This document shows positions 2-11,736 of a DNA stretch of 24,208 nt, piece by piece. The stretch covers positions 1-24,208 of IMG/VR virus record IMGVR_UViG_3300022752_000386; one strand, written 5' to 3'. Source of the DNA: a virus. The notes under the pieces are model-generated. The model was not told where the DNA came from, searched no databases, and saw only the letters and a list, made by a program, of their open reading frames with translations. A program made the translations under genes and the position numbers. Positions within the stretch are counted from its first letter, which is position 1. The number at the start of each line of letters is the position of its first letter.

Positions 2-238
2 AGCATCACGACTGGCGGCGTGGTTATCCCCGCGAACGGCTCCGTGGCGTTCCCCATCGGTTCGACGATCACGGTCTATAACAACAGCGCCAGCGCCCAG
101 AACATCTCGATCACGACCGACACGCTGCGGCTTGCCGGTACGGCAACCTCTGGAACTCGGAGCCTTGCGCAGCGAGGTCTTGCAACCTGTATTAAAGTAG
201 CAGCCACCGAGTGGGTTGTTACCGGTAACGTAACCTAA
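2..238 (+). CDS. Tail fibre C-terminus (5'-truncated by window edge)
   Basis: The reading frame is open from the left edge, so this is the end of a larger gene. The visible 78 residues end in a beta-rich module (TLRLAGTATSGTRSLAQRG, then LAT and a short strand). This module is clearly homologous to the last 80 or so residues of the 788-aa tail fibre encoded at 3194-5560 (TLRLAGTTTTGNRTLAARG). The simplest reading is the C-terminal tip or foldon-like end of another tail fibre or fibre-like virion protein. An internal GTG at 20 is the first start codon in frame, but homology extends to the window edge, so it is not the true start. The stop codon TAA contributes bases to the Shine-Dalgarno of the next gene (AGGAGA at 238-243), so the two genes are probably co-translated. 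Sure of the homology; the exact role is inferred. Confidence 0.7.
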   Translation, partial: SITTGGVVIPANGSVAFPIGSTITVYNNSASAQNISITTDTLRLAGTATSGTRSLAQRGLATCIKVAATEWVVTGNVT

Positions 239-249
239 GGAGAGACGAA

Positions 250-579
250 ATGACCATTACCAACACTTGGGCAGTTGTCCAGATGAACGCTTACCCTGAA
301 CTCGACGGCGAAACTGATGTGGTCTTTACCGTGCACTGGACGCTGACCGGCACGGACGGCACCTATATTGGTTCTGTCTATGGTTCTGTTGGTGTGTCGG
401 TTGACCCGGATGCCCCGTTCACACCTTATGCTGATCTGACGCAAGCGCAGGTGGTCGGTTGGGTGCAAAGCGCGCTGGGCGCTGAACAGGTCGCTGCCTA
501 CGAAGCCAACGTCGCCACGCAGATTGCTAACCAGATCGACCCCCCTGTCGTGACCCCTCCGCTGCCTTGGTCTGGCTGA
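250..579 (+). CDS. Small fibre-associated phage protein (DUF7936-like)
   Basis: This gene encodes 109 aa, starting 6 bases after a near-perfect Shine-Dalgarno (AGGAGA). The N-terminal two thirds is a predicted beta-sandwich (alternating hydrophobic strands with WTLTGTDG and SVYGSVGVSVDP turns). It is followed by one amphipathic helix (LTQAQVVGWVQSALG, EQVAAYEANVATQIANQ) and a Pro-rich end, PPLPWSG. This order (strands, FT/PYADLT, helix with VxGWV, closing PLPWS) matches small proteins found beside fibre genes in marine and cyanobacterial phages; the DUF7936 name is from memory. Its position directly behind a fibre gene, like the 141-aa gene behind the second fibre, suggests a fibre tip or assembly partner. 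Base composition is visibly AT-richer than the core virion genes. The function is not established. Confidence 0.75.
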   Translation: MTITNTWAVVQMNAYPELDGETDVVFTVHWTLTGTDGTYIGSVYGSVGVSVDPDAPFTPYADLTQAQVVGWVQSALGAEQVAAYEANVATQIANQIDPPVVTPPLPWSG

Positions 580-626: not shown

Positions 627-1763
627 ATGTTCGGTTTCTCCGCGTTCGCCGTCACGCCGTTTGCCGCCACGCCGACGGTTGCGCTGTCGCCTGCGCTCTT
701 CACCAACACGAACACGTTCTACAGCGCAACGATCAGTAGCGCGATCAACCTCGCGCCGGCCCTGTTCACCAACACGAACACGTTTTACGCAGCTACGATC
801 GGTAACGCGATCAACCTCGCGCCTGCGCTCTTCACCAATACGAACACGTTCTACAGCGCAACGATCAGCAGTGCGATCAACCTCGCGCCTGCGCTCTACA
901 CCAACACGAACACGTTCTATACGGCCGCGATCAGTGCGGGCGCGATCAACCTCGCGCCTGCGCTCTTCACCAACACCAACACGTTTTACGCAGCTACGAT
1001 CAGTAGCGCGATCAACCTCGCGCCTGCGCTCTTCGCTAATACGAACACGTTCTACACGGCCACGATCAATGCGGGCGCGATAAACCTCGCGCCTGCGCTC
1101 TTCACCAATACGAACACATTCTATACGGCCACGATCAGCAGCACCTATGCCCTGCTGCCTGCGCTCTACACCAACACGAACACGTTCTACAGCGCAACGA
1201 TCAGCAGCGCGATCAACCTCGCGCCTGCGCTCTTCACCAACACGAACACGTTCTACACGGCAGTGGTGAAGCAGGACATAACGCTGTTGCCTGCGCTCCT
1301 CGTCAACACGAACACGTTCTATGCCGCCGCGATTACCGTCGGGCCTGTCGACCTAGCCCCGCAGCTTTACATCAACGCGAACACGTTCTACGCGGCCGCA
1401 ATCGTTCCGGGCGCGGTCAACCTCGCGCCGGCCCTGTTCACCAACACGAACACGGTTTTCCCGCCCTCCGCCCGGTCGGTCAACCCGCTGCGGCCGTCGC
1501 TGCTGGTCAACCTCTCGATATTCTACTCGGCGACGATCGGCGGCGGCAGCCCAGTGCCGATACCGTTCAACCCTTACGACCGCCGGCAGAACATGATCGT
1601 CGAGGAGCTGCCCCGGCAGAGCATGACGATTGAGGAGCTGCCGCGCCGATCTATGACCGTGCAGGAGCTGCCGCGCCGGTCGATGACCGTGCAGGAGCTG
1701 CCGCGCCGGTCTATGATCGTGCAGGAGCTGCCGCGAAAGAACATGGAGCCCAACGGCGTATAG
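627..1763 (+). CDS. Tandem-repeat virion protein (22/23-aa and 10-aa repeats)
   Basis: This gene encodes 378 aa with an AAGGAG Shine-Dalgarno 9 bases before the ATG. Residues 23-290 are twelve tandem units of 22 or 23 residues with consensus ALFTNTNTFYxATIxxAINLAP, and residues 291-305 are a decayed thirteenth unit. The regular alternation of polar NTNT, aromatic FY and hydrophobic strands suggests a beta-solenoid or a stack of short beta-hairpins. After a linker, residues 322-371 are five 10-residue units with consensus SMTVQELPRR, which are charged and probably extended. No signal peptide, membrane segment or catalytic motif is visible. The location between fibre and adaptor genes, and the repeats, point to a virion surface or tail appendage component; this is inference. 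No named family is recognised with confidence. The repeat number probably varies between relatives, and assembly of this stretch deserves care. Confidence 0.8.
   Translation: MFGFSAFAVTPFAATPTVALSPALFTNTNTFYSATISSAINLAPALFTNTNTFYAATIGNAINLAPALFTNTNTFYSATISSAINLAPALYTNTNTFYTAAISAGAINLAPALFTNTNTFYAATISSAINLAPALFANTNTFYTATINAGAINLAPALFTNTNTFYTATISSTYALLPALYTNTNTFYSATISSAINLAPALFTNTNTFYTAVVKQDITLLPALLVNTNTFYAAAITVGPVDLAPQLYINANTFYAAAIVPGAVNLAPALFTNTNTVFPPSARSVNPLRPSLLVNLSIFYSATIGGGSPVPIPFNPYDRRQNMIVEELPRQSMTIEELPRRSMTVQELPRRSMTVQELPRRSMIVQELPRKNMEPNGV
693..1541 (+). repeat. Tandem 66/69-bp coding repeats (12 units plus a degenerate 13th)
   Basis: These are head-to-tail coding repeats of 66 or 69 bp without spacers. 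The most conserved core reads AACACGAACACGTTCTA in most units. Eight units encode 22 residues and four encode 23, the extra residue being a glycine or similar in the SAGAINLAP-type units. Several units are nearly identical at DNA level, which fits recent expansion by slippage or recombination. The last units drift in sequence. Confidence 0.9.
1590..1739 (+). repeat. Five tandem 30-bp coding repeats (VQELPRRSMT)
   Basis: Five consecutive 30-bp units encode N/S-M-I/T-V/I-E/Q-E-L-P-R-R/Q/K. Units three and four encode the same peptide and differ only at silent positions. The units form the charged C-terminal tail of the 378-aa repeat protein. Confidence 0.9.
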
Positions 1764-1856: not shown

Positions 1857-2843
1857 ATGGCCTATTCCGGCACAGTATCGCAGACGACCTTCGACACGCG
1901 CCGCGTGATCGATAACGCCACGCGTCGCTGCAAGCTGCCCGCGCAGTCCATCACCGCCGAGCACATCAGCATCGCGAACGACGTGCTGTACCTGCTGCTC
2001 TCGGATCTCGCCAACCAAGGCGTGCCGCTCTGGTGCGTGCAGGAGACGCTCTACCCGCTCTACGAGGGCGTGCCGATCATCGTAACCGAGAAGGGCACCG
2101 TTGACATCCTCAACACCAACCTGCGCTCGCTGCAGGAGGTGACCGGCACCAACATCGACACGTCCACGACCCGCATCACGCAGTTCACCAGCACCACGCC
2201 CGTCACGACCGTCGGCATCCGCTGGTCGGCACCGGCCGTGCCGATCGAGTTTTCGCGCTCCAATGACGGGGTGACGTGGACTATACTCCAAGCCGAAGTG
2301 CCCCAAGCGTCAGCCGGAGAGTGGACTTGGTACGATCTGTCCAGCGTAGTCGCAGCCACATACTTCCGCGTGCGGGCCACCAGCGGCACCCTCGGCTTCA
2401 GTCAGGTGTACCTCGGCAACACGCCGACGGAAATCCCGCTGGCCCGCCTGAACCGCGACGACTACACCAACCTGCCCAACAAGCAGTTCCAGAGCAATCG
2501 CCCCCTGCAGTATTGGCTCGATCGGCAATCCCTCTCCCCCGTGATGAACCTGTGGCCGGTGCCGAATATCGCCGCCACCGTCATGCAGGTCGTGGTCTGG
2601 TCGCACCGGCACATCATGGACGTTGGGACGATGACGCAGGAACTTGAGGTGCCGCAGCGCTGGTACGAGGCAATCGTGTCCATGCTCGCCGCCAAACTGG
2701 CGATGGAGTACGTTGAGGTCGATGCCAGCATGATCCCGCTGCTCGACCAGAAGGCGCAGCAGGCGCTCTACATCGCGCAGGCCGAGGAGCGCGACAACAG
2801 CCCGATGATGATCGCGCCCAACATCGCCGTGTACACGAGGTAA
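1857..2843 (+). CDS. Adaptor-like virion protein with discoidin (F5/8C)-type insert
   Basis: This gene encodes 328 aa. Residues 1-95 are helical and resemble the N-terminus of head-to-tail adaptor proteins. Residues about 100-190 look like an inserted F5/8 type C (discoidin) beta-sandwich, with VGIRWSAP, a SNDGVTWT turn, GEWTWYDL and TYFRVRA in the expected order. Residues 197-328 return to an adaptor pattern: RDDYTNLPNKQF, PLQYWLDRQ, MNLWPVPN, then C-terminal helices with PQRWYEAIVSMLAAKLAMEY. A second protein of similar layout but without the insert is encoded at 8258-8911. Discoidin domains usually bind carbohydrate, so the insert may decorate the neck or carry a receptor- or fibre-binding role (inference). 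The Shine-Dalgarno is weak, but the start follows the predicted promoter and no better start is visible. Confidence 0.7.
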   Translation: MAYSGTVSQTTFDTRRVIDNATRRCKLPAQSITAEHISIANDVLYLLLSDLANQGVPLWCVQETLYPLYEGVPIIVTEKGTVDILNTNLRSLQEVTGTNIDTSTTRITQFTSTTPVTTVGIRWSAPAVPIEFSRSNDGVTWTILQAEVPQASAGEWTWYDLSSVVAATYFRVRATSGTLGFSQVYLGNTPTEIPLARLNRDDYTNLPNKQFQSNRPLQYWLDRQSLSPVMNLWPVPNIAATVMQVVVWSHRHIMDVGTMTQELEVPQRWYEAIVSMLAAKLAMEYVEVDASMIPLLDQKAQQALYIAQAEERDNSPMMIAPNIAVYTR

Positions 2844-2847
2844 GCGC

Positions 2848-3087
2848 ATGCCGATCTTCCTCGACACCCGTGGCAAGAGCACGCTGGCAATCGGCATCTG
2901 CGGACGCTGCAGCCGCAAGTTCTCCATGACCGAACTCCTGCCGGATCCCAACTATCCGGGCCTGCTGGTGTGCGACGTTGATCGCGACGACTACGACCCG
3001 TATCGCCTGCCGGCGCGGCAGCCGGAGAAGATCTCGCTACGCTTCGCGCGGCCGGACACACCCCTCGACCCCGGGGGTGCGGTATGA
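2848..3087 (+). CDS. Small conserved phage protein with CxxC zinc-ribbon-like start
   Basis: This gene encodes 79 aa starting 5 bases after the adaptor-like gene. C18-x2-C21 and C42, followed by acidic residues D43, D45, D47 and D48, resemble half of a zinc ribbon with the fourth Cys missing or replaced. The C-terminal stretch DPYRLPARQPEKISLRFARP is characteristic of small proteins found among structural genes of many phages, as far as I recall; the family has no established function. It is probably a virion or assembly component because of its place between adaptor and fibre genes. Its stop overlaps the start of the next small ORF (ATGA). Confidence 0.7.
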   Translation: MPIFLDTRGKSTLAIGICGRCSRKFSMTELLPDPNYPGLLVCDVDRDDYDPYRLPARQPEKISLRFARPDTPLDPGGAV

Positions 3088-3194
3088 AGATCCTCGAGAC
3101 CTCTGGCGTGCTCCCCACGTCTCGTGGAGGCGCTGGCGATGGCTCGCGCGCTGTCGCCAGCGCTCTTTCTTTCCCTGATCGAGGAACTTTCTGA
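3084..3194 (+). CDS. Putative 36-aa translationally coupled ORF
   Basis: This is a short ORF that bridges the 79-aa gene and the 788-aa fibre. Its ATG (3084) overlaps the upstream stop as ATGA, and its TGA (3192-3194) overlaps the fibre ATG as TGATG. A G-rich stretch (GGGGGTG) lies just upstream of the start. The peptide begins MKILETSGVLPTSRGG and is Gly/Ser/Ala-rich with no membrane helix. The alternative is that these 107 bases are an untranslated spacer, but the double overlap keeps ribosomes moving without a gap, as elsewhere in this module. No function can be assigned. Confidence 0.5.
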   Translation: MKILETSGVLPTSRGGAGDGSRAVASALSFPDRGTF

Positions 3195-5560
3195 TGGCCC
3201 AGAGCGGCTTCACACCCCTCCAGCTCTACCGCTCGACCACGCCCGCTGCGGTGCCCTTGGCGGGCAACCTCGTGGCCGGCGAGCTGGCGATCAACCTCGC
3301 CGACGAGAAGCTGTACTTCAAGAACGCCAGCGGCGTCGTCAAGCTGCTGGCGAACTCTGCCGTAACCGGCACCGTCACTTCAGTGGCCGCTTCAGGCGGC
3401 ACGACTGGCCTGAGCTTCACCGGCTCGCCGATCACCACCAGCGGGACGCTGACGCTGAGCGGCACCCTTGTCGTGGCGAACGGCGGCACTGGTGCGTCCA
3501 CGTTCACCGCAAATGGTCTCTTGCTGGGTAACGGCACGTCTGCCGTGAGCGTGACTGCCGTGGGCACCACGGGTCAGGTGCTGGTGGGCAACACCGGCGC
3601 GGCCCCGACGTGGGCCACGCTCTCCTCCAGCGCCGTCACCTCGTTCAGCGCGGGCACGACTGGCCTGACGCCGTCCACCTCGACCACGGGCGCGATTACC
3701 CTCGCCGGCACTCTGGCCGTCGCCAACGGCGGCACCGGCGGCACGACGCAGAGCACTGCGCGCTCTGGTTTGGGCTCAACCGTCACGGGCGACGCCCTGT
3801 TCACCGCCGCGAGCGCGGCAGCGGCGCGCACGACCCTCGGCGCGACGACGGTGGGCGCAAACGTCTTCACGCTCACGAACCCCAGCGCGGTCACGTTCCC
3901 GCGCTTCAACGCCGACAACACCGTCTCCGCACTGGACGCCGCCACGTTCCGCACGGCCATCGGCGCGGGCACCGGTGGCGGCTCCGTCACTTCGGTAGCG
4001 GGCACCGGTACGGTCAACGGCATCACGCTCACGGGCACCGTGACCAGCAGCGGCAACCTCACTCTTGGCGGCACGCTCTCGGGCGTTGACCTCGCCACGC
4101 AGACCAGCGGCACGCTGGCTGTTGCGCGCGGCGGCACCGGTGCCACTGACGCCGGCACCGCCCGCTCCAACCTGAGCGCGGCCGGATCAGGGGCTGTGGG
4201 CTCTAGCGGCCTGACGATGAACACGGCCCGCATGCTGGGCCGCACCACGGCCAGCGCCGGGGCTATCGAGGAAATCACGATCGGCTCCGGCCTCTCGCTG
4301 TCGGGCGGCACGCTGGTGGCCACGTCGTCTGGCGGCAGCGTGACCTCGGTGGACGCATCGGGCGGCACGACTGGCCTGAGCTTCAGCGGCGGCCCGATCA
4401 CCACGAGTGGCACGCTGACGCTGAGCGGCACTCTGGCAGTCGCCAACGGCGGCACGGGAGGCACGACGCAGAGCGCCGGGCGAGCCGGTCTGGGCGCGAC
4501 CACTGTCGGCGAAAACCTCTTCACCCTCGGCAACCCAAGTGCCGTGCGCTTCCTGCGCGTCAACGCCGACAATACGGTCAGCGCACTTGACGCGACGAAC
4601 TTCCGCACCGCGATTGGCGCGGGCACGGGATCTGGCACAGTCACCAGCGTTGACGCGGCGGGTGGCACGACTGGCCTGAGCTTCAGCGGCGGCCCGGTTA
4701 CCGGCTCGGGAACGCTGACCCTCGCCGGCACGCTCGCCGTCACCAATGGCGGCACCGGTGGCACGTCGCAGAGCACTGCGCGATCGGGTCTAGGTGCCAC
4801 GGCGGTGGGGGCCAACTTCTTCACGCTGACCAACCCAAGCTCTGTGACCTTCGTCCGCATCAACGCGGACAACACAATCAGCACCCTCGACGCGCCGACT
4901 TTCCGCACGGCCATCGGCGCGGGCACCAGCTCGACCACGGGCACGGTCACCTCTGTCAGCGGCACCGGCACGGTCAACGGCCTCACCCTCACCGGCACGG
5001 TTACCAGCACCGGCAACATCACGCTCGGAGGTACGCTTTCCGGCATTGCCAACAGCGCGCTGACTAACTCCGCCATCACCATCAACGGGTCGTCTATCTC
5101 GCTTGGCGGCTCGGTTTCAGTCGGCACGGTCACCTCGGTCAGCGGCACTGGTTCGACCAACGGCCTGTCCCTCTCCGGCACGGTTACCGGCAGCGGCAAC
5201 ATCACACTGAGCGGTAGCGTCACTTCGGTGGCCACCTCGGCAACCATCGACGGCGTCACCATCGGTTACCGCAGCATCCCCCGCTCGACCACGAGCGGCA
5301 CCGCAGTGGTGGCTGATGTCGGCAAGTGCATCGCCGTCACTGCGGGTATCACGATCCCGAACAGCACCTTCGCTGCCGGCGACGCCGTCTCTATCTATAA
5401 TGATAGCGGGTCGGCCATCACGATCACGGCGGGCGTCACGACCCTACGCCTTGCGGGGACAACCACTACAGGTAACCGTACGCTGGCTGCGCGCGGCTTG
5501 GCTACCGTCTGGTTCAACAGTGCGACCGAAGCAGTCATCTCTGGTGCGGGGGTCAGCTAA
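3194..5560 (+). CDS. Tail fibre protein with repeated shaft modules
   Basis: This gene encodes 788 aa, rich in Gly, Thr, Ser and Ala. The N-terminus (about 1-55, FTPLQLYRSTTPAAVPLAGN, ELAINLADEKLYFKN) resembles the virion-attachment region of fibre proteins of marine and other phages. The shaft consists of repeated modules. One starts with AVANGGTGGTTQ and runs through FRTAIGAGT (from residues 176, 416 and 516; the last two are exactly 300 bp apart). Another has GTVTSVSGTGTVNG and LTLTGTVTS (from residues 263, 583 and 644). The last 80 residues form a tip module (VGKCIAVTAGITIP, AVSIYNDSG, LRLAG) shared with the truncated gene at the left edge. No enzymatic domain is seen. The role is inferred to be host attachment. 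A long antisense ORF over it is a composition artefact. Confidence 0.85.
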   Translation: MAQSGFTPLQLYRSTTPAAVPLAGNLVAGELAINLADEKLYFKNASGVVKLLANSAVTGTVTSVAASGGTTGLSFTGSPITTSGTLTLSGTLVVANGGTGASTFTANGLLLGNGTSAVSVTAVGTTGQVLVGNTGAAPTWATLSSSAVTSFSAGTTGLTPSTSTTGAITLAGTLAVANGGTGGTTQSTARSGLGSTVTGDALFTAASAAAARTTLGATTVGANVFTLTNPSAVTFPRFNADNTVSALDAATFRTAIGAGTGGGSVTSVAGTGTVNGITLTGTVTSSGNLTLGGTLSGVDLATQTSGTLAVARGGTGATDAGTARSNLSAAGSGAVGSSGLTMNTARMLGRTTASAGAIEEITIGSGLSLSGGTLVATSSGGSVTSVDASGGTTGLSFSGGPITTSGTLTLSGTLAVANGGTGGTTQSAGRAGLGATTVGENLFTLGNPSAVRFLRVNADNTVSALDATNFRTAIGAGTGSGTVTSVDAAGGTTGLSFSGGPVTGSGTLTLAGTLAVTNGGTGGTSQSTARSGLGATAVGANFFTLTNPSSVTFVRINADNTISTLDAPTFRTAIGAGTSSTTGTVTSVSGTGTVNGLTLTGTVTSTGNITLGGTLSGIANSALTNSAITINGSSISLGGSVSVGTVTSVSGTGSTNGLSLSGTVTGSGNITLSGSVTSVATSATIDGVTIGYRSIPRSTTSGTAVVADVGKCIAVTAGITIPNSTFAAGDAVSIYNDSGSAITITAGVTTLRLAGTTTTGNRTLAARGLATVWFNSATEAVISGAGVS
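3719..5220 (+). repeat. Diverged internal repeats of the tail-fibre shaft
   Basis: GGTGG-type modules begin at 3719, 4439 and 4739; the second and third are spaced exactly 300 bp apart and encode about 100 residues each. A second repeat family (GTVTSV...LTLTGTVTS) begins at 3980, 4940 and 5123. The copies are diverged at DNA level but collinear in protein, indicating old duplication of shaft segments. Confidence 0.8.
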
Positions 5561-6955: not shown

Positions 6956-7122
6956 TGACTGGCAACCTCTCCACCGTTGAACTGATCGGCCAGCTCTGGC
7001 CCGTCGTTCTGGCGTTCATCTCCCTGACGATCATCCTCGCCAAGATGGATGTGCGCCTCGGCGTGGCGGAGGAGAAGATCAAGACGCTCTTCGAACTCTG
7101 GAACAAGAAGAAAGACGGATGA
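6955..7122 (+). CDS. 55-aa single-TM protein, lysis cassette
   Basis: This is a 55-aa ORF with overlaps at both ends: its start overlaps the upstream stop (TAATG) and its stop overlaps the endolysin start (ATGA). A short N-terminus (MTGNLSTVELIG) leads into one TM helix (about 11-29, WPVVLAFISLTIILA). This is followed by a charged coiled-coil-like helix ending NKKKDG. The order is the reverse of the 53-aa protein at 6349, whose helix precedes the TM. It is a probable holin accessory or antiholin-like protein, inferred from size, topology and position. Confidence 0.65.
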   Translation: MTGNLSTVELIGQLWPVVLAFISLTIILAKMDVRLGVAEEKIKTLFELWNKKKDG

Positions 7123-7733
7123 GCCTCGCAAACCTTCAGCAGAAGATCGGCGTCACCGCTGACGGTGCGTTTGGCCCCGGCACGCTCAAGGCTGCCGCCG
7201 CCTACTACAAGCTGTCGCCCAACCGCGCCGCGCACTTCTTCGCCCAGACGGCACACGAAACCGGCGGCTTCAAGGCCTTCAGTGAGAACCTGAGCTACGG
7301 TGCCCCCGGCCTGCGTGGCATCTTCGGGAAGTATTTCCCGACCGACGACATGGCCAAGGCGTACGAGCGCCAGCCGCAGAAGATCGCCAACCGCGTCTAC
7401 GGCGGCCGCATGGGCAACGGCGTCGAGGCGTCCGGTGACGGGTGGAAGTACCGCGGTCGCGGCGCGCTGCAGCTCACAGGCAAGGCGAACTATCAGGCCT
7501 TCTCCGACTACATCAAGCGGCCGGACGTAATGACGAACCCCGATCTGGTCGCGGGCGAACTCTGCTTCGAGAGCGCTCTCTGGTTCTTCGACAAGAACAG
7601 GCTCTGGTCGATCTGCGACCAAGGCATCAACGACGCCGCCATCCTCGCGCTGACGAAGCGCATCAATGGCGGCACGCACGGCCTCGATGACCGCAAGCTG
7701 AAGACGAAGAAGTTTGCCGGGTGGGTGGCATGA
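7119..7733 (+). CDS. Endolysin, GH19 chitinase/lysozyme-like
   Basis: This gene encodes 204 aa. The N-terminal 25 or so residues (LQQKIGVTADGAFGPGTLKA) resemble a half peptidoglycan-binding repeat, followed by a GH19 fold. HETGGF carries the probable catalytic acid E47, and E56 in SENLSY is the likely second carboxylate. GRGALQLTGKANY (113-125) and RINGGTHGLDDR (181-192) are the usual substrate-cleft motifs. GH19 endolysins cleave the glycan strands of peptidoglycan. There is no signal peptide, so release should depend on the upstream holin-like proteins. Length is typical for phage GH19 enzymes without extra binding modules. The start overlaps the preceding stop, and its stop overlaps the i-spanin start (ATGA). 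Confidence 0.92.
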   Translation: MSLANLQQKIGVTADGAFGPGTLKAAAAYYKLSPNRAAHFFAQTAHETGGFKAFSENLSYGAPGLRGIFGKYFPTDDMAKAYERQPQKIANRVYGGRMGNGVEASGDGWKYRGRGALQLTGKANYQAFSDYIKRPDVMTNPDLVAGELCFESALWFFDKNRLWSICDQGINDAAILALTKRINGGTHGLDDRKLKTKKFAGWVA

Positions 7734-8164
7734 TCCCCAACCCGATCATGCTTTACGCGGCGGCAGGCGCTCTCCTCGTCGGTGCCGTCGCAGGGTACAA
7801 AGTCCGCGACTGGCAGTGCGACGCGGCGTATGCAAAGGCTCTGGAAAAGGCGGGAAAGCAACGTGCTAAAGCCGACATCATCCTCGACAAAAAGGCCGCA
7901 GAATATGAAGAAACACGCGCCGCTGCCGATGTGCGCTCCGTCGAGCGGACTAACACCATTCGTGAGATTTACCACACGGTGCCTGCCGCTGCTGCCAGTT
8001 GCGCTCCTCCTGACGACGCTGTCCGGGTGCTCGTCGAAGTCATCGGTAATCCAGACACTGAAGCCGCCGCCGGCCAATCTGGCGAGCCCGTGTTCCCTGT
8101 TAAACAATCCGCCCAAGCCCTTCCTCGACCCAGCCCGGCTGCTGTGGGAAAAAGACCTGATTGA
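7730..8164 (+). CDS. Rz-like inner-membrane spanin (i-spanin)
   Basis: This gene encodes 144 aa, with an ATG that overlaps the endolysin stop (ATGA). Residues about 7-24 form an uncleaved signal-anchor TM helix (LYAAAGALLVGAVAGYKV). A periplasmic Ala/Lys/Glu-rich coiled coil follows (about 33-80), then a Pro-rich end. This is the layout of Rz-type i-spanins, which with a lipoprotein partner fuse inner and outer membranes in the last step of lysis of Gram-negative hosts. The partner ORF starts inside this gene in another frame at 7962. Because the last 200 or so bases serve two frames, the C-terminal sequence is constrained and of low complexity. Confidence 0.8.
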   Translation: MIPNPIMLYAAAGALLVGAVAGYKVRDWQCDAAYAKALEKAGKQRAKADIILDKKAAEYEETRAAADVRSVERTNTIREIYHTVPAAAASCAPPDDAVRVLVEVIGNPDTEAAAGQSGEPVFPVKQSAQALPRPSPAAVGKRPD

Positions 8165-8243
8165 GCGGAGGAATGACTGCGCGGAGAAACACCGGCTGAC
8201 CATCGAGGCGTGGCGCGAAGCTAGTCAATTGCCGCAAAAGTGA
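7962..8243 (+). CDS. Rz1-like outer-membrane lipoprotein spanin (o-spanin), overlapping Rz
   Basis: This gene encodes 93 aa from GTG 7962, in a different frame inside the i-spanin gene and running 79 bases past it. The first 22 residues are a lipoprotein signal peptide: two Arg, a hydrophobic core LPLLPVALLL, and lipobox LSG followed by C23. The mature part is short and Pro-rich (LKPPPANLASP, NNPPKPF) and ends in a helix, as in o-spanins. GTG 7962 is chosen because it gives a normal n-region; an in-frame ATG at 7905 would add 19 residues. It fits an overlapping Rz/Rz1 pair and implies an outer membrane in the host. Confidence 0.8.
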   Translation: MRFTTRCLPLLPVALLLTTLSGCSSKSSVIQTLKPPPANLASPCSLLNNPPKPFLDPARLLWEKDLIERRNDCAEKHRLTIEAWREASQLPQK

Positions 8244-8257
8244 TATAAGGACATCCC

Positions 8258-8911
8258 ATGGCCACGACGATGACCTTCACGACGCTCCAGCAGGACGTGC
8301 GGCGCTATCTTGAGCGCGGCACGACCTACGCGTCCGACCCCGTCGTTTTTGAGCAAATCCCGCGCCTGATCAATCTGGCTGAGCGGCGCATCGCGCGCGA
8401 GCTCAAGATCCAAGGCTTCATCAACGTCGTCAGCGGCACGCTGCAGGCCGGCGTGGCTGTGTACGACAAGCCCGACCGCTGGCGCGACACGGTGAGCATC
8501 AACATCGGCACCGGCACGAACAACAACACCCGCAAGGTGCTGTTTTCCCGCGCCTACGAGTACATGCTCAGCTACTGGCCGGATCGCACCGCAACCGCGC
8601 AGCCGATCTTCTACAGCGACTACGACTACAGCCACTGGCTGATCTCGCCGACGCCCAACGCTGATTACCCATTCGAGGTGCTGTACTACGAGCTGCCGCC
8701 GCTGCTGGATGACGCTGTGCAGACCAACTGGCTGAGTGAGTACGCGCCGCAGCTCCTGCTGTACGGCACGCTCCTTGAGGCCACGCCGTTCCTGAAGAAC
8801 GACGAGCGCATCCCCGTCTGGCAGAACATGTACGATCGCGCGGCCGCGATGCTTAACGGCGAGGATCTCGCCAAAATCCTTGACCGTTCGGCGGTTCGGA
8901 AAGAGGCATAA
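8258..8911 (+). CDS. Head-to-tail adaptor protein (SU10/P22 gp4-like)
   Basis: This gene encodes 217 aa with the SD-like ATAAGGA 6 bases before the ATG. The N-terminus (FTTLQQDVRRYLERG, then IPRLINLAERRIARELK) is the helical start typical of podovirus adaptor proteins that sit between portal and nozzle. A central beta region (YWPDRTATAQPIFYSDYDY, WLISPTPN, FEVLYYELPP) and C-terminal helices (WLSEYAPQLLLYGTLLEATP) complete the pattern. The gene lies two genes upstream of the nozzle/stabilisation protein it would bind. The family match is by eye; the name SU10-type adaptor is from memory. A longer protein of the same layout is encoded at 1857-2843. Confidence 0.75.
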   Translation: MATTMTFTTLQQDVRRYLERGTTYASDPVVFEQIPRLINLAERRIARELKIQGFINVVSGTLQAGVAVYDKPDRWRDTVSINIGTGTNNNTRKVLFSRAYEYMLSYWPDRTATAQPIFYSDYDYSHWLISPTPNADYPFEVLYYELPPLLDDAVQTNWLSEYAPQLLLYGTLLEATPFLKNDERIPVWQNMYDRAAAMLNGEDLAKILDRSAVRKEA

Positions 8912-10119: not shown

Positions 10120-11736
10120 ATGCCCGTCGTCCAGATACGGTCGCAGCCGGGCATCAAGCGCGATGGCACGAAGTTCGAGGGCGATAACTACGTCGATGGG
10201 CAGTGGGTGCGCTTTCAGCGCGGCCTGCCGCGTAAGATCGGCGGCTATCGCGCGATCAGCAAGTATCTGCGCGAGGTCAGCCGCGCGCTGCACGAGTTCA
10301 CTCAGAACAGCCTGACGTACGTCCACAGCGGCTCGGCCAACCTCGTCGAGCGCTTTTATATCGACAACGGCTTCAACACGTCCGTCATCACCAATCGCAC
10401 GCCGGCAACGCTGGCGGCTGACCCGAACAATATGTGGCAATTCGACGCCATCGCCGCGCCGGGCCTTGGTGGCCTGCAGCTTGTCGCGCAGGTCGCGCCG
10501 AACCTCGAGTGCATCTGCAATGCGGACGGCGGCCAGCTTTTCTTCGGGGATCTGTTCGGCACTGCGCCGCTGCAGCCGATCACCAACCTGCCGGCCGGCT
10601 ACAGCGCCACCGGTGGCGTCGCCGTCTTTCACCCCTACACGTTCATCTTCGGCAACGACGGTTACGTGGCGTTCTCGGTGGCGGGCGACCCCACGGACTA
10701 CACCAGCCTCGGCTCTGGCGCGGCGAACATCGCCTCGCAGAAGATCGTGCGCGGCATCGCCCTGCGCGGCGGGCCGGGCAACTCCCCGTCCGGCCTGTTC
10801 TGGTCGGCTGACGCGCTGGTGCGCGCCTCGTTCGTGGGCGGCGCGCCTGTGTTCCAGTTCGACACGATCAGCACGCAAACCTCAATCCTCGGCGCGAACA
10901 CCGTCATCGAGTATGACGGCATCTTCTACTGGTGCGGCACCGACCGCTTCCTGATGTTCAACGGCGTCGTGCGCGAGGTGCCGAACAACCTCAATCTGAA
11001 CTACTTCTTCGAGGGCCTCAACCAGTCGCAGCGCCAGAAGGTGTTTGCGATGAAGGTGCCGCGCTACGGCGAAATCTGGTGGTGCTACCCGCGCGGCGAG
11101 GCGATCGAGCCGTCGCACGCCGTCATTTACAACGTGCGCGAGAATACGTGGTACGATTGTGAGTTGCCCAACAGCGGCCGCAGCGCAGCCGTGTCCCCCA
11201 CGGTCTTCCCCAAGCCGCTAATGACGGGCGTGGTGCCGACTGCAGCGGCAGAAGAAATCCGCGTCACCGAGGCCAGCGACACGCGCATCACGGAGACGGG
11301 TGGAGACGTGCGCGTCACGGAAGACAGCGGCGACGATCAGTATCGCCTGTGGGTGCATGAGGTGGGCGTGGACGATATCGACGGCCTGAACATCCAGCCT
11401 GTGCTGAGCTTCTTCGAGACGGCTGACATGTCGCTGCCGGTGACGAGCCAAGAGAACAAGGCGCTGCAGGTGCTGATGGTGGAGCCCGACTTCGTGCAGA
11501 GCGGCGACATGACCATGCAGGTGACCGGCCGCGCCAACGCGCGATCGCCCGAGGTGACAACGGAGCCGCACACCATCTACGAGACGCCGCCGACGCCGCA
11601 GGATCAGGTCGTGTACTTCAAGACGCAGCGCCGCGAGCTCCGCTTCCGCTTCGAGAGCAACGCCATCGGCGGCGACTATCAGATGGGCTTGGTGCTGGCG
11701 CATGTGCAGTCCGGCGACGGCACGGTGATCGGGTGA
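10120..11736 (+). CDS. Tail nozzle / packaged-DNA stabilisation protein (P22 gp10-like)
   Basis: This gene encodes 538 aa and begins directly after the previous stop (TAAATG). The N-terminus VQIRSQPGIKRDGTKFEG, then YVDGQWVRFQRGLPRKIGGY, is the characteristic beginning of P22 gp10-like nozzle/stabilisation proteins. Propeller-like beta repeats follow (HPYTFIFGNDGYVAFS, IEYDGIFYWCGTDRFLMFNG, GEIWWCYPRGE, AVIYNVRENTWYDC). In P22 this protein closes the portal-adaptor channel and carries the tail needle and spikes. Residues 378-404 contain three short repeats built on RVTE/RITE, probably a surface loop. The length is slightly above P22 gp10. I am fairly sure of the family; host-specific details are unknown. 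Confidence 0.85.
   Translation: MPVVQIRSQPGIKRDGTKFEGDNYVDGQWVRFQRGLPRKIGGYRAISKYLREVSRALHEFTQNSLTYVHSGSANLVERFYIDNGFNTSVITNRTPATLAADPNNMWQFDAIAAPGLGGLQLVAQVAPNLECICNADGGQLFFGDLFGTAPLQPITNLPAGYSATGGVAVFHPYTFIFGNDGYVAFSVAGDPTDYTSLGSGAANIASQKIVRGIALRGGPGNSPSGLFWSADALVRASFVGGAPVFQFDTISTQTSILGANTVIEYDGIFYWCGTDRFLMFNGVVREVPNNLNLNYFFEGLNQSQRQKVFAMKVPRYGEIWWCYPRGEAIEPSHAVIYNVRENTWYDCELPNSGRSAAVSPTVFPKPLMTGVVPTAAAEEIRVTEASDTRITETGGDVRVTEDSGDDQYRLWVHEVGVDDIDGLNIQPVLSFFETADMSLPVTSQENKALQVLMVEPDFVQSGDMTMQVTGRANARSPEVTTEPHTIYETPPTPQDQVVYFKTQRRELRFRFESNAIGGDYQMGLVLAHVQSGDGTVIG

Follow-up and report, generated by a model that had tools for sequence, protein, structure and literature searches.

Virions of phage Corndog that had been banded twice in CsCl yielded 17 peptides of gp63 and 9 of gp64, and gp60 and gp61 of phage Catdawg were detected in a pelleted, otherwise unpurified lysate (PMC4351075). 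Corndog gp63/gp64 may be equated with Catdawg gp60/gp61 on account of equal lengths, gene order and the statement in the same paper that Corndog gp66 corresponds to Catdawg gp63 (PMC4351075). Catdawg gp61 and Brujita gp24 belong to the family phrog_8501, "minor tail protein" (8.6e-78 and 2e-73), and gp23, which adjoins gp24 in Brujita, belongs to phrog_644 (6.9e-49). Both phrog_8501 proteins are built, by eye, of units of the form xxPxxIxSxAxVxxPTVxxGxV. Two further groups of phages bear on the comparison, namely the Caulobacter phages RW, RLK, KcrB and GB2A, described in PMC11053796 (proposed Riverwalkvirus), and Pam2, given in PMC9382816 as a long-tailed phage of a cyanobacterium.

Here, a gene for a repeat protein is described that lies on a virus fragment of 24,208 bases (IMG/VR record IMGVR_UViG_3300022752_000386; the whole stretch is referred to as the window). 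A literature search, from which most subscription journals were absent, found no paper on its NTNTFY repeat or on such tail proteins. The preferred reading, to which a probability of about 0.62 is given, is that the gene encodes a minor tail or fibre-stalk protein, the repeats of which form a rod (probably a beta-solenoid) linking exchangeable ends.

Tandem arrays of the window protein

The open reading frame (P0001, 627..1763, plus strand, ORF call with ATG start) encodes 378 amino acids and is preceded by a ribosome-binding-site-like sequence, GGAAGGAG, at 610-617. Its product is made almost wholly of two kinds of tandem repeats, as proposed in the first-pass annotation from the letters of the DNA. 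A short N-terminal part (MFGFSAFAVTPFAATPTV, 627..680, plus strand) is followed by the long array (681..1541, plus strand), which extends from residue 19 to about residue 305, its end being set at the core of the last unit. The units start at positions 681, 747, 813, 879, 948, 1014, 1083, 1149, 1215, 1281, 1350, 1419 and 1485 (plus strand) and are spaced by 22, 22, 22, 23, 22, 23, 22, 22, 22, 23, 23 and 22 residues. The first-pass annotation had counted a dozen units of 22/23 residues; the repeats are real, but the number is 13 and not 12. The last two (12 and 13) are degenerate, and the motif NT[NQHSTA]TF[YF] was found 10 times. Near the end of the protein, a C-terminal array of the xxMxVxELPR type plus KNMEPNGV is located (1587..1760, plus strand), in which all five 10-residue units claimed before could be read in the translation (QNMIVEELPR, QSMTIEELPR, RSMTVQELPR twice and RSMIVQELPR).

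With Tandem Repeats Finder, the 66-nt array obtained scores of 735 (688-1257) and 672 (688-1321), two longer periods (135 and 201 nt) reached 766 and 809, and a score of 140 was obtained for the 30-nt array (1584-1745). Since the reporting minimum is a score of 50, both repeats exceed chance. Identical residues in units 1-9 use the same codon in 0.77 of 548 comparisons versus 0.51 expected from the codon usage of five other ORFs in the window, which bears out the earlier remark that the units are similar at the DNA level. Among the 323 units of 27 selected arrays, 152 had their nearest neighbour within their own array (12.7 expected under random membership), the observed count being lowered by related arrays in the selection. 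Codon identity and same-array nearest neighbours together indicate that the units arose by duplication.

Distribution of the repeat unit

No convincing match to P0001 was obtained in Pfam, PHROGs, NCBIfam or the PDB sequences (best E-values 0.036, 0.011, 0.015 and 0.022, respectively; no PHROG at E 0.01), and a lectin-like domain (Laminin-G etc.) was not found in it above the curated Pfam cut-off. A match to the tape-measure protein of Microbacterium phage Zeta1847 (20.4% identity, E 7e-5) was put down to composition. A scan of IMG/VR yielded 73 loci with an array, and a second query gave 26 loci, of which 10 were dropped as contigs already counted and 16 were further contigs. In 50,697 phage records, a single strong match to P0001 was found, in Pseudanabaena phage Pam2, and tblastn with three further relatives as queries gave nothing beyond Pam2 at E ≤ 0.001. 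Of the 35 stretches of GTDB species genomes that fitted a pattern of the repeat, one is a relative (a Mesorhizobium region, L076), with an array protein that equals that of L059 as printed. A part of L052 used as query matched only L052 itself, and the C-terminal 72 residues of the window protein matched eight loci, all on contigs already counted. The set used below comprises 91 array ORFs (72 of the 73 loci of the first scan, 16 of the second, Pam2, the window and L076), 66 of them complete at both ends; as many of the contigs are nearly identical, these are not 91 independent cases. L045 (a piece without a motif frame), the locus from the L052 query and the eight loci from the C-terminal query were dropped before the counts.

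Over the 91 array ORFs, the unit consensus is roughly LxPxLFxNTNTFYxATV. Insertions, in the sequences as read, fall in the stretches that separate one unit core from the following one. A spacing of 421 residues, the widest, occurs in a 952-aa protein (L052, 3796-6651), where the part between two array stretches holds a zinc carboxypeptidase match (PF00246, 7.3e-11). In L058, Laminin_G_3 is fused to the array protein (5.4e-21), and the N-terminal cluster of this protein is shared by L056, L060, L061, L064 and L073. These are the two surface-type fusions seen in the ten relatives scanned against Pfam. The 22/23-residue unit is a widespread phage module, found with many different ends in a rough clustering.

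Probable kinship to mycobacteriophage minor tail proteins

The statement that the protein has no named family holds for P0001 itself but not for its relatives, since six of ten that were scanned against PHROGs match phrog_8501 at E ≤ 0.01 (L013 1e-25, L019 2.3e-14, L010 4.6e-12, L074 3.7e-9, L058 1.1e-3 and L025 5.9e-3). The other four (L015, L054, L050 and L043) gave no phrog_8501 match at this threshold. A profile built from two sequences, Brujita gp24 and Catdawg gp61, matched 56 of the 91 array ORFs at E < 1e-3, with a best score of 80.9 bits. When one and the same reordering was applied to the 19 core residues in all units, by which composition and period are kept, matches averaged 0.4 over 40 trials, with a best score of 20.1 bits, and shuffling of whole sequences (once per ORF) gave no match. 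With reversed sequences, 18 of 91 matched (best 47 bits, L052), which indicates that periodicity inflates the profile scores and supplies part of the signal. The window protein itself reached E 0.032 (7 bits) with this profile, which is not significant alone, so that its kinship to the mycobacteriophage proteins runs through its relatives.

Direct comparisons gave little: pairwise tblastn of L013 against mycobacteriophages reached E-values of 0.3-1 only, when the array alignment was compared by hhalign with four remote proteins taken singly, the probabilities were 0.3-5%, and Pfam found nothing above cut-off in five remote relatives. The array profile matched gp57 of Roseobacter phage CRP-6 at 4.5e-16 (reversed form 2.5e-8), a protein of Microcystis phage Mwe-JY26 at 1e-8 (reversed form 0.024), prophiFVLQ01-1 gp73 at 5.3e-5, Brujita gp24 at 2.9e-4 and Catdawg gp61 at 0.05. 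By eye, the start of CRP-6 gp57 (MFGTSPFAAATFAG) resembles that of the window protein (MFGFSAFAVTPFAA). The Mwe-JY26 protein (L119, 1699-4203) carries 22-residue repeats of the GIQDGDTFG type, and its E/R-rich end resembles, by eye, the 10-residue repeats of the window.

Mycobacteriophage minor tail proteins are likely to be distant relatives of the array protein. Brujita gp24 and Catdawg gp61 have in common with the array proteins tandem units of about 22 residues with xxPTVxxGxV (by eye) and, as with array relatives, a phrog_644-like gene upstream and a position in the tail cluster. Unlike the window protein, they are 132-133 amino acids in all, with about five units by eye, and have neither the NTNTFY core nor the C-terminal array of 10-residue repeats.

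Genomic neighbourhood and probable virion location

The array gene of the window is located between a gene for a DUF7936 protein of 109 amino acids (250..579, plus strand; PF25590, 2.8e-32) and one for a protein of 328 amino acids (1857..2843, plus strand), which matches phrog_12985 and shows a weak similarity to SU10_adaptor (0.0021, below the curated cut-off). Further downstream, a 788-aa tail-fibre-like protein is encoded (3194..5560, plus strand; phrog_11393, 2.3e-5). That the gene sits with tail-type genes, as had been noted from the sequence, is confirmed by these Pfam and PHROG matches. Several other features of the region were observed. The ORF cut by the start of the window (2-238) and the 788-aa ORF have a similar C-terminal stretch by eye (TLRLAGT...RGLAT), and these two fibre-type neighbours seem to share an end domain. 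A 300-nt direct repeat inside the 788-aa gene (4352-4926, 1.9 copies, score 700 in Tandem Repeats Finder) falls in a region without a chained match to the related contig L001. A strong SU10_adaptor match (6.7e-30) was found in a second protein of the window (8258-8911). A GH19-type endolysin gene (7119-7733; PF00182, 1.3e-9) precedes two overlapping frames (7721-8164 and 7782-8243, the second with a lipobox-like LSGC), which by eye have the look of an i-spanin/o-spanin pair.

By the 538-aa virion protein encoded at 10120-11736 (60.8% identity), Caulobacter phages RW, RLK, KcrB and GB2A are the isolates closest to the window. None of the four has a match to the array at E ≤ 0.001. GB2A gp075c and gp074c look homologous to the products of 1857-2843 and 2848-3087 by eye, and GB2A carries other genes at the place of the array, among them gp080c, which has the look of an SGNH-type hydrolase (by eye). 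Pam2_68, a hypothetical protein, is 50% identical to P0001 over 65% of the query (E 2e-60) and, like the window protein, has 13 units by the unit model, but differs from it in the N- and C-terminal parts. It is encoded downstream of a phrog_644-like gene annotated as "minor tail subunit". At the corresponding places of Pam2 (L074, 5980-7596) and PA-SR01 (L078, 3748-5775), two otherwise related cyanophages, the C-terminal parts are common and the array is present in Pam2 only.

From 36 array loci, 149 nearby ORFs on the same strand (90-1500 amino acids) were compared with PHROGs. Among the 25 of 158 families listed, those found most often were phrog_644 (14), phrog_12985 (10) and phrog_26662 (10), all without assigned function. 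Next came two families of major head proteins (6 and 5) and one named starvation-inducible transcriptional regulator (6), and then scaffolding, tail-fibre and tail-fibre assembly families. With a profile of the partner gene (built from Brujita gp23, Catdawg gp60 and the gene that precedes the array in L013), a phrog_644-like gene was detected in 60 of the 91 array loci, in 59 of them upstream and on the same strand; L040, with a weak downstream match only, was left out of the latter. The value of 59 is a lower bound, many loci being cut (the window covers 626 nt upstream). Where 700 nt or more precede the array gene (77 loci), the partner gene is directly adjacent to it in 16, and where 3 kb or more precede it (53 loci), the partner gene lies within 4 kb in 37. 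A gene of the partner type was found by tblastn with one member (E ≤ 1e-5) in 226 of the 50,697 phage records. The association is far above this background, allowing for the differing methods and the near-identical contigs.

From this context and from the likely relatives, a location of the window protein in the virion may be deduced, and the protein would be an accessory component of the tail, either a minor tail protein or a fibre stalk. Alternatively, it might act as an assembly factor of the fibre cluster (a tail-fibre chaperone or scaffold) that is not part of the particle, to which the position among fibre-type genes and the tail-fibre assembly PHROGs in the neighbourhood of its relatives would also be suited. 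This appears very improbable, given that remote relatives with the same neighbour were found in purified Corndog particles (PMC4351075), and that one array relative has a fused lectin-like domain and another a fused peptidase.

Unit number in close relatives

Unit numbers, all of which could be affected by miscounting of repeats in short-read assembly, differ between close relatives. L021 and L038 have nine and eight units, respectively, with flanks identical to 100% over 1200 nt before and 98.8% over 1200 nt after the array. When units are written as letters, L039 reads ABIJQFGM and L020-L022 read ABIJPQFGM, so that exactly unit P is missing; L039 and L021 are 99.9% identical over 1200 nt downstream, and 51 nt are covered before the L039 array. 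Downstream, over about 1.6 kb, the window (13 units) shares 97.6-98.3% identity with L001, L002 and L003, which have 10, 8 and 8 units. The number of 10-residue units is five in the window and three in each of these relatives. In L045/L079, which has the closest C-terminus (89% identity), the last 72 residues are matched over 216 nt; 72 residues span 216 nt, and the same five 10-residue units are therefore present. Constant counts were seen as well, L003-L006 all having 8 units. The first-pass annotation had suggested that repeat number changes quickly and had named a comparison across relatives as the check: the number is not constant, as the changes beside nearly identical flanks demonstrate, though it is not always different.

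Given the similarity of the units at the DNA level, whole units would be gained or lost in frame by unequal recombination. By this route the length of a stalk could change while its fold stays intact. To go by the weak structure model described below, the array may set a surface length, a role that had been considered in the annotation along with antigenicity; for the latter, nothing was found in support.

Discordant flanks and exchange of ends

On the two sides of the array, relationships to other loci differ (14 loci compared). Upstream, L034 is 94% identical to L002 (1448 nt) and has no match to L019, whereas downstream it is 93% identical to L019 (1180 nt) and 75% to L002. Units 1-3 of L034 are nearest to those of L001/L002 and units 4-9 to those of L019, the latter with a lead over L001/L002 of only 2-6 points, unit 9 being tied among three relatives of the L019 side. 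L048 is 77-78% identical to L001/L003 over 1498 nt upstream, has no match to them downstream and there resembles L043 (73% over 1001 nt). The window, with 680 nt available before the array, has no upstream match to L001-L003; its units 1-10 are 80-89% and its units 11-13 86-94% identical to the best counterparts in these three, with a few lower single values. Its N-terminal part falls into cluster N1 with L008, L016-L024, L043 and others, apart from its closest downstream relatives L001-L006 (N3). The window, L034 and L048 thus have the appearance of recombinants with a junction inside the array or next to it. Clustering of the ends of the 91 ORFs gave 20 N-terminal and 23 C-terminal clusters, which are rough owing to the short, low-complexity ends. 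Both N1 and N3 are found with C1 as well as with C3, N2 is combined with eleven C clusters, and C1 has six N clusters as partners.

Recombination between the arrays of different phages may have swapped the attachments on either side, by which the end modules of a stalk would change. The discordance could instead reflect the ordinary hypervariability of fibre clusters, with breakpoints that are merely near an array which itself has no part in recombination. There is substance to this view: the 788-aa fibre gene is a second variable spot, without a chained match to L001 between 3492 and 6005, and hhalign of the array alignment against the 788-aa protein of the window detected no such repeat in it, so that exchange is not confined to the array. 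In GB2A and PA-SR01, other genes or domains occupy the corresponding place, and the margins that put the switch of L034 inside its array are small. Against it stand the change of the nearest relative of L034 within the array, between units 3 and 4, and the free combination of end types in the rough clustering (N1 and N3 with C1 and C3; C1 with six N clusters). Taken together, hypervariability unconnected with the array is considered a serious possibility, though one held below even odds.

Predicted fold of the array

Structure prediction had been proposed as a check for a solenoid. An AlphaFold2 model of the full protein with 22 relatives showed three strands in units 3-10, in keeping with a solenoid, but had a mean pLDDT of only 54.6 (52-69 for blocks of ten between residues 21 and 250, and below 50 thereafter). 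A six-unit model based on 71 sequences reached a pLDDT of 50.5, with 28-33 in the other four of five models. In Foldseek, the AlphaFold2 model retrieved nothing from the PDB at E ≤ 0.001 (E-values above 0.04). The single match at E ≤ 0.001 in a BFVD structure search (TM 0.24, rmsd 22.8) was uninformative. Among the PDB chains that aligned best with the model are tapirin 6n2c, Awp1 7o9q, HMW1 2odl and HxuA 4i84, with Z-scores of 12.7-14.8 and rmsd values of 3.2-3.7 over 213-268 residues at 6-11% identity (tapirin at Z 14.8 and rmsd 3.2 over 244). These are single-chain adhesins or secretion domains with a right-handed beta-helix, and LpxD chains, which are left-handed helices, align at an rmsd of about 13. 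The predicted fold class of the array is thus like that of the former, a resemblance of class only, at low model confidence. A right-handed beta-solenoid with three strands per turn is favoured but unproven.

Phage fibre shafts are often trimeric, and the array could also be a fibrous trimer (of the triple beta-spiral type) or a flexible, disordered linker, either of which would leave the role as a tail stalk otherwise the same. The low AlphaFold2 confidence in both models and the modelling of a single chain fit such a structure. A disordered array is less easily reconciled with the regular spacing of neighbouring units (22 or 23 residues in 387 of 452 cases, from 56 distinct arrays), with the nearly invariant N, F and Y positions and with the recurrence of the same three strands across units 3-10 of the full-length model. 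These points bear on disorder rather than on a trimer; a linker or trimer, taken together, is regarded as somewhat unlikely. In the preferred reading, the 22/23-residue units would form a rod, probably a right-handed solenoid, that spaces and joins the short N-terminal end and the C-terminal end of 10-residue repeats, and these ends might bind the virion and the host.

Implications for phage tails

The interest of the locus lies in the unit-by-unit difference in length and in the array as a meeting point of exchanged ends. A wider interpretation, considered doubtful at present, would make the array a general exchange joint of phage tails, that is, a uniform, length-adjustable rod with repetitive DNA within which distant lineages recombine and the length of which is tuned by single turns. 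If so, a fibre cassette on the upstream side could be linked, with the reading frame kept, to a different virion module downstream, for instance between a lineage with the Caulobacter-RW-like backbone seen in the window and Pam2 or other long-tailed cyanophages, and unequal crossing over would set the rod length in steps of one turn. If the assignment as a tail protein is right, a repeat module without a match above the Pfam or NCBIfam cut-offs would tie many "hypothetical" phage proteins to the minor tail proteins of mycobacteriophages, and such proteins would gain a probable place in the virion. The natural series of 8, 9, 10 and 13 units would then offer a means to test the effect of stalk length and of end-swapping in adsorption.
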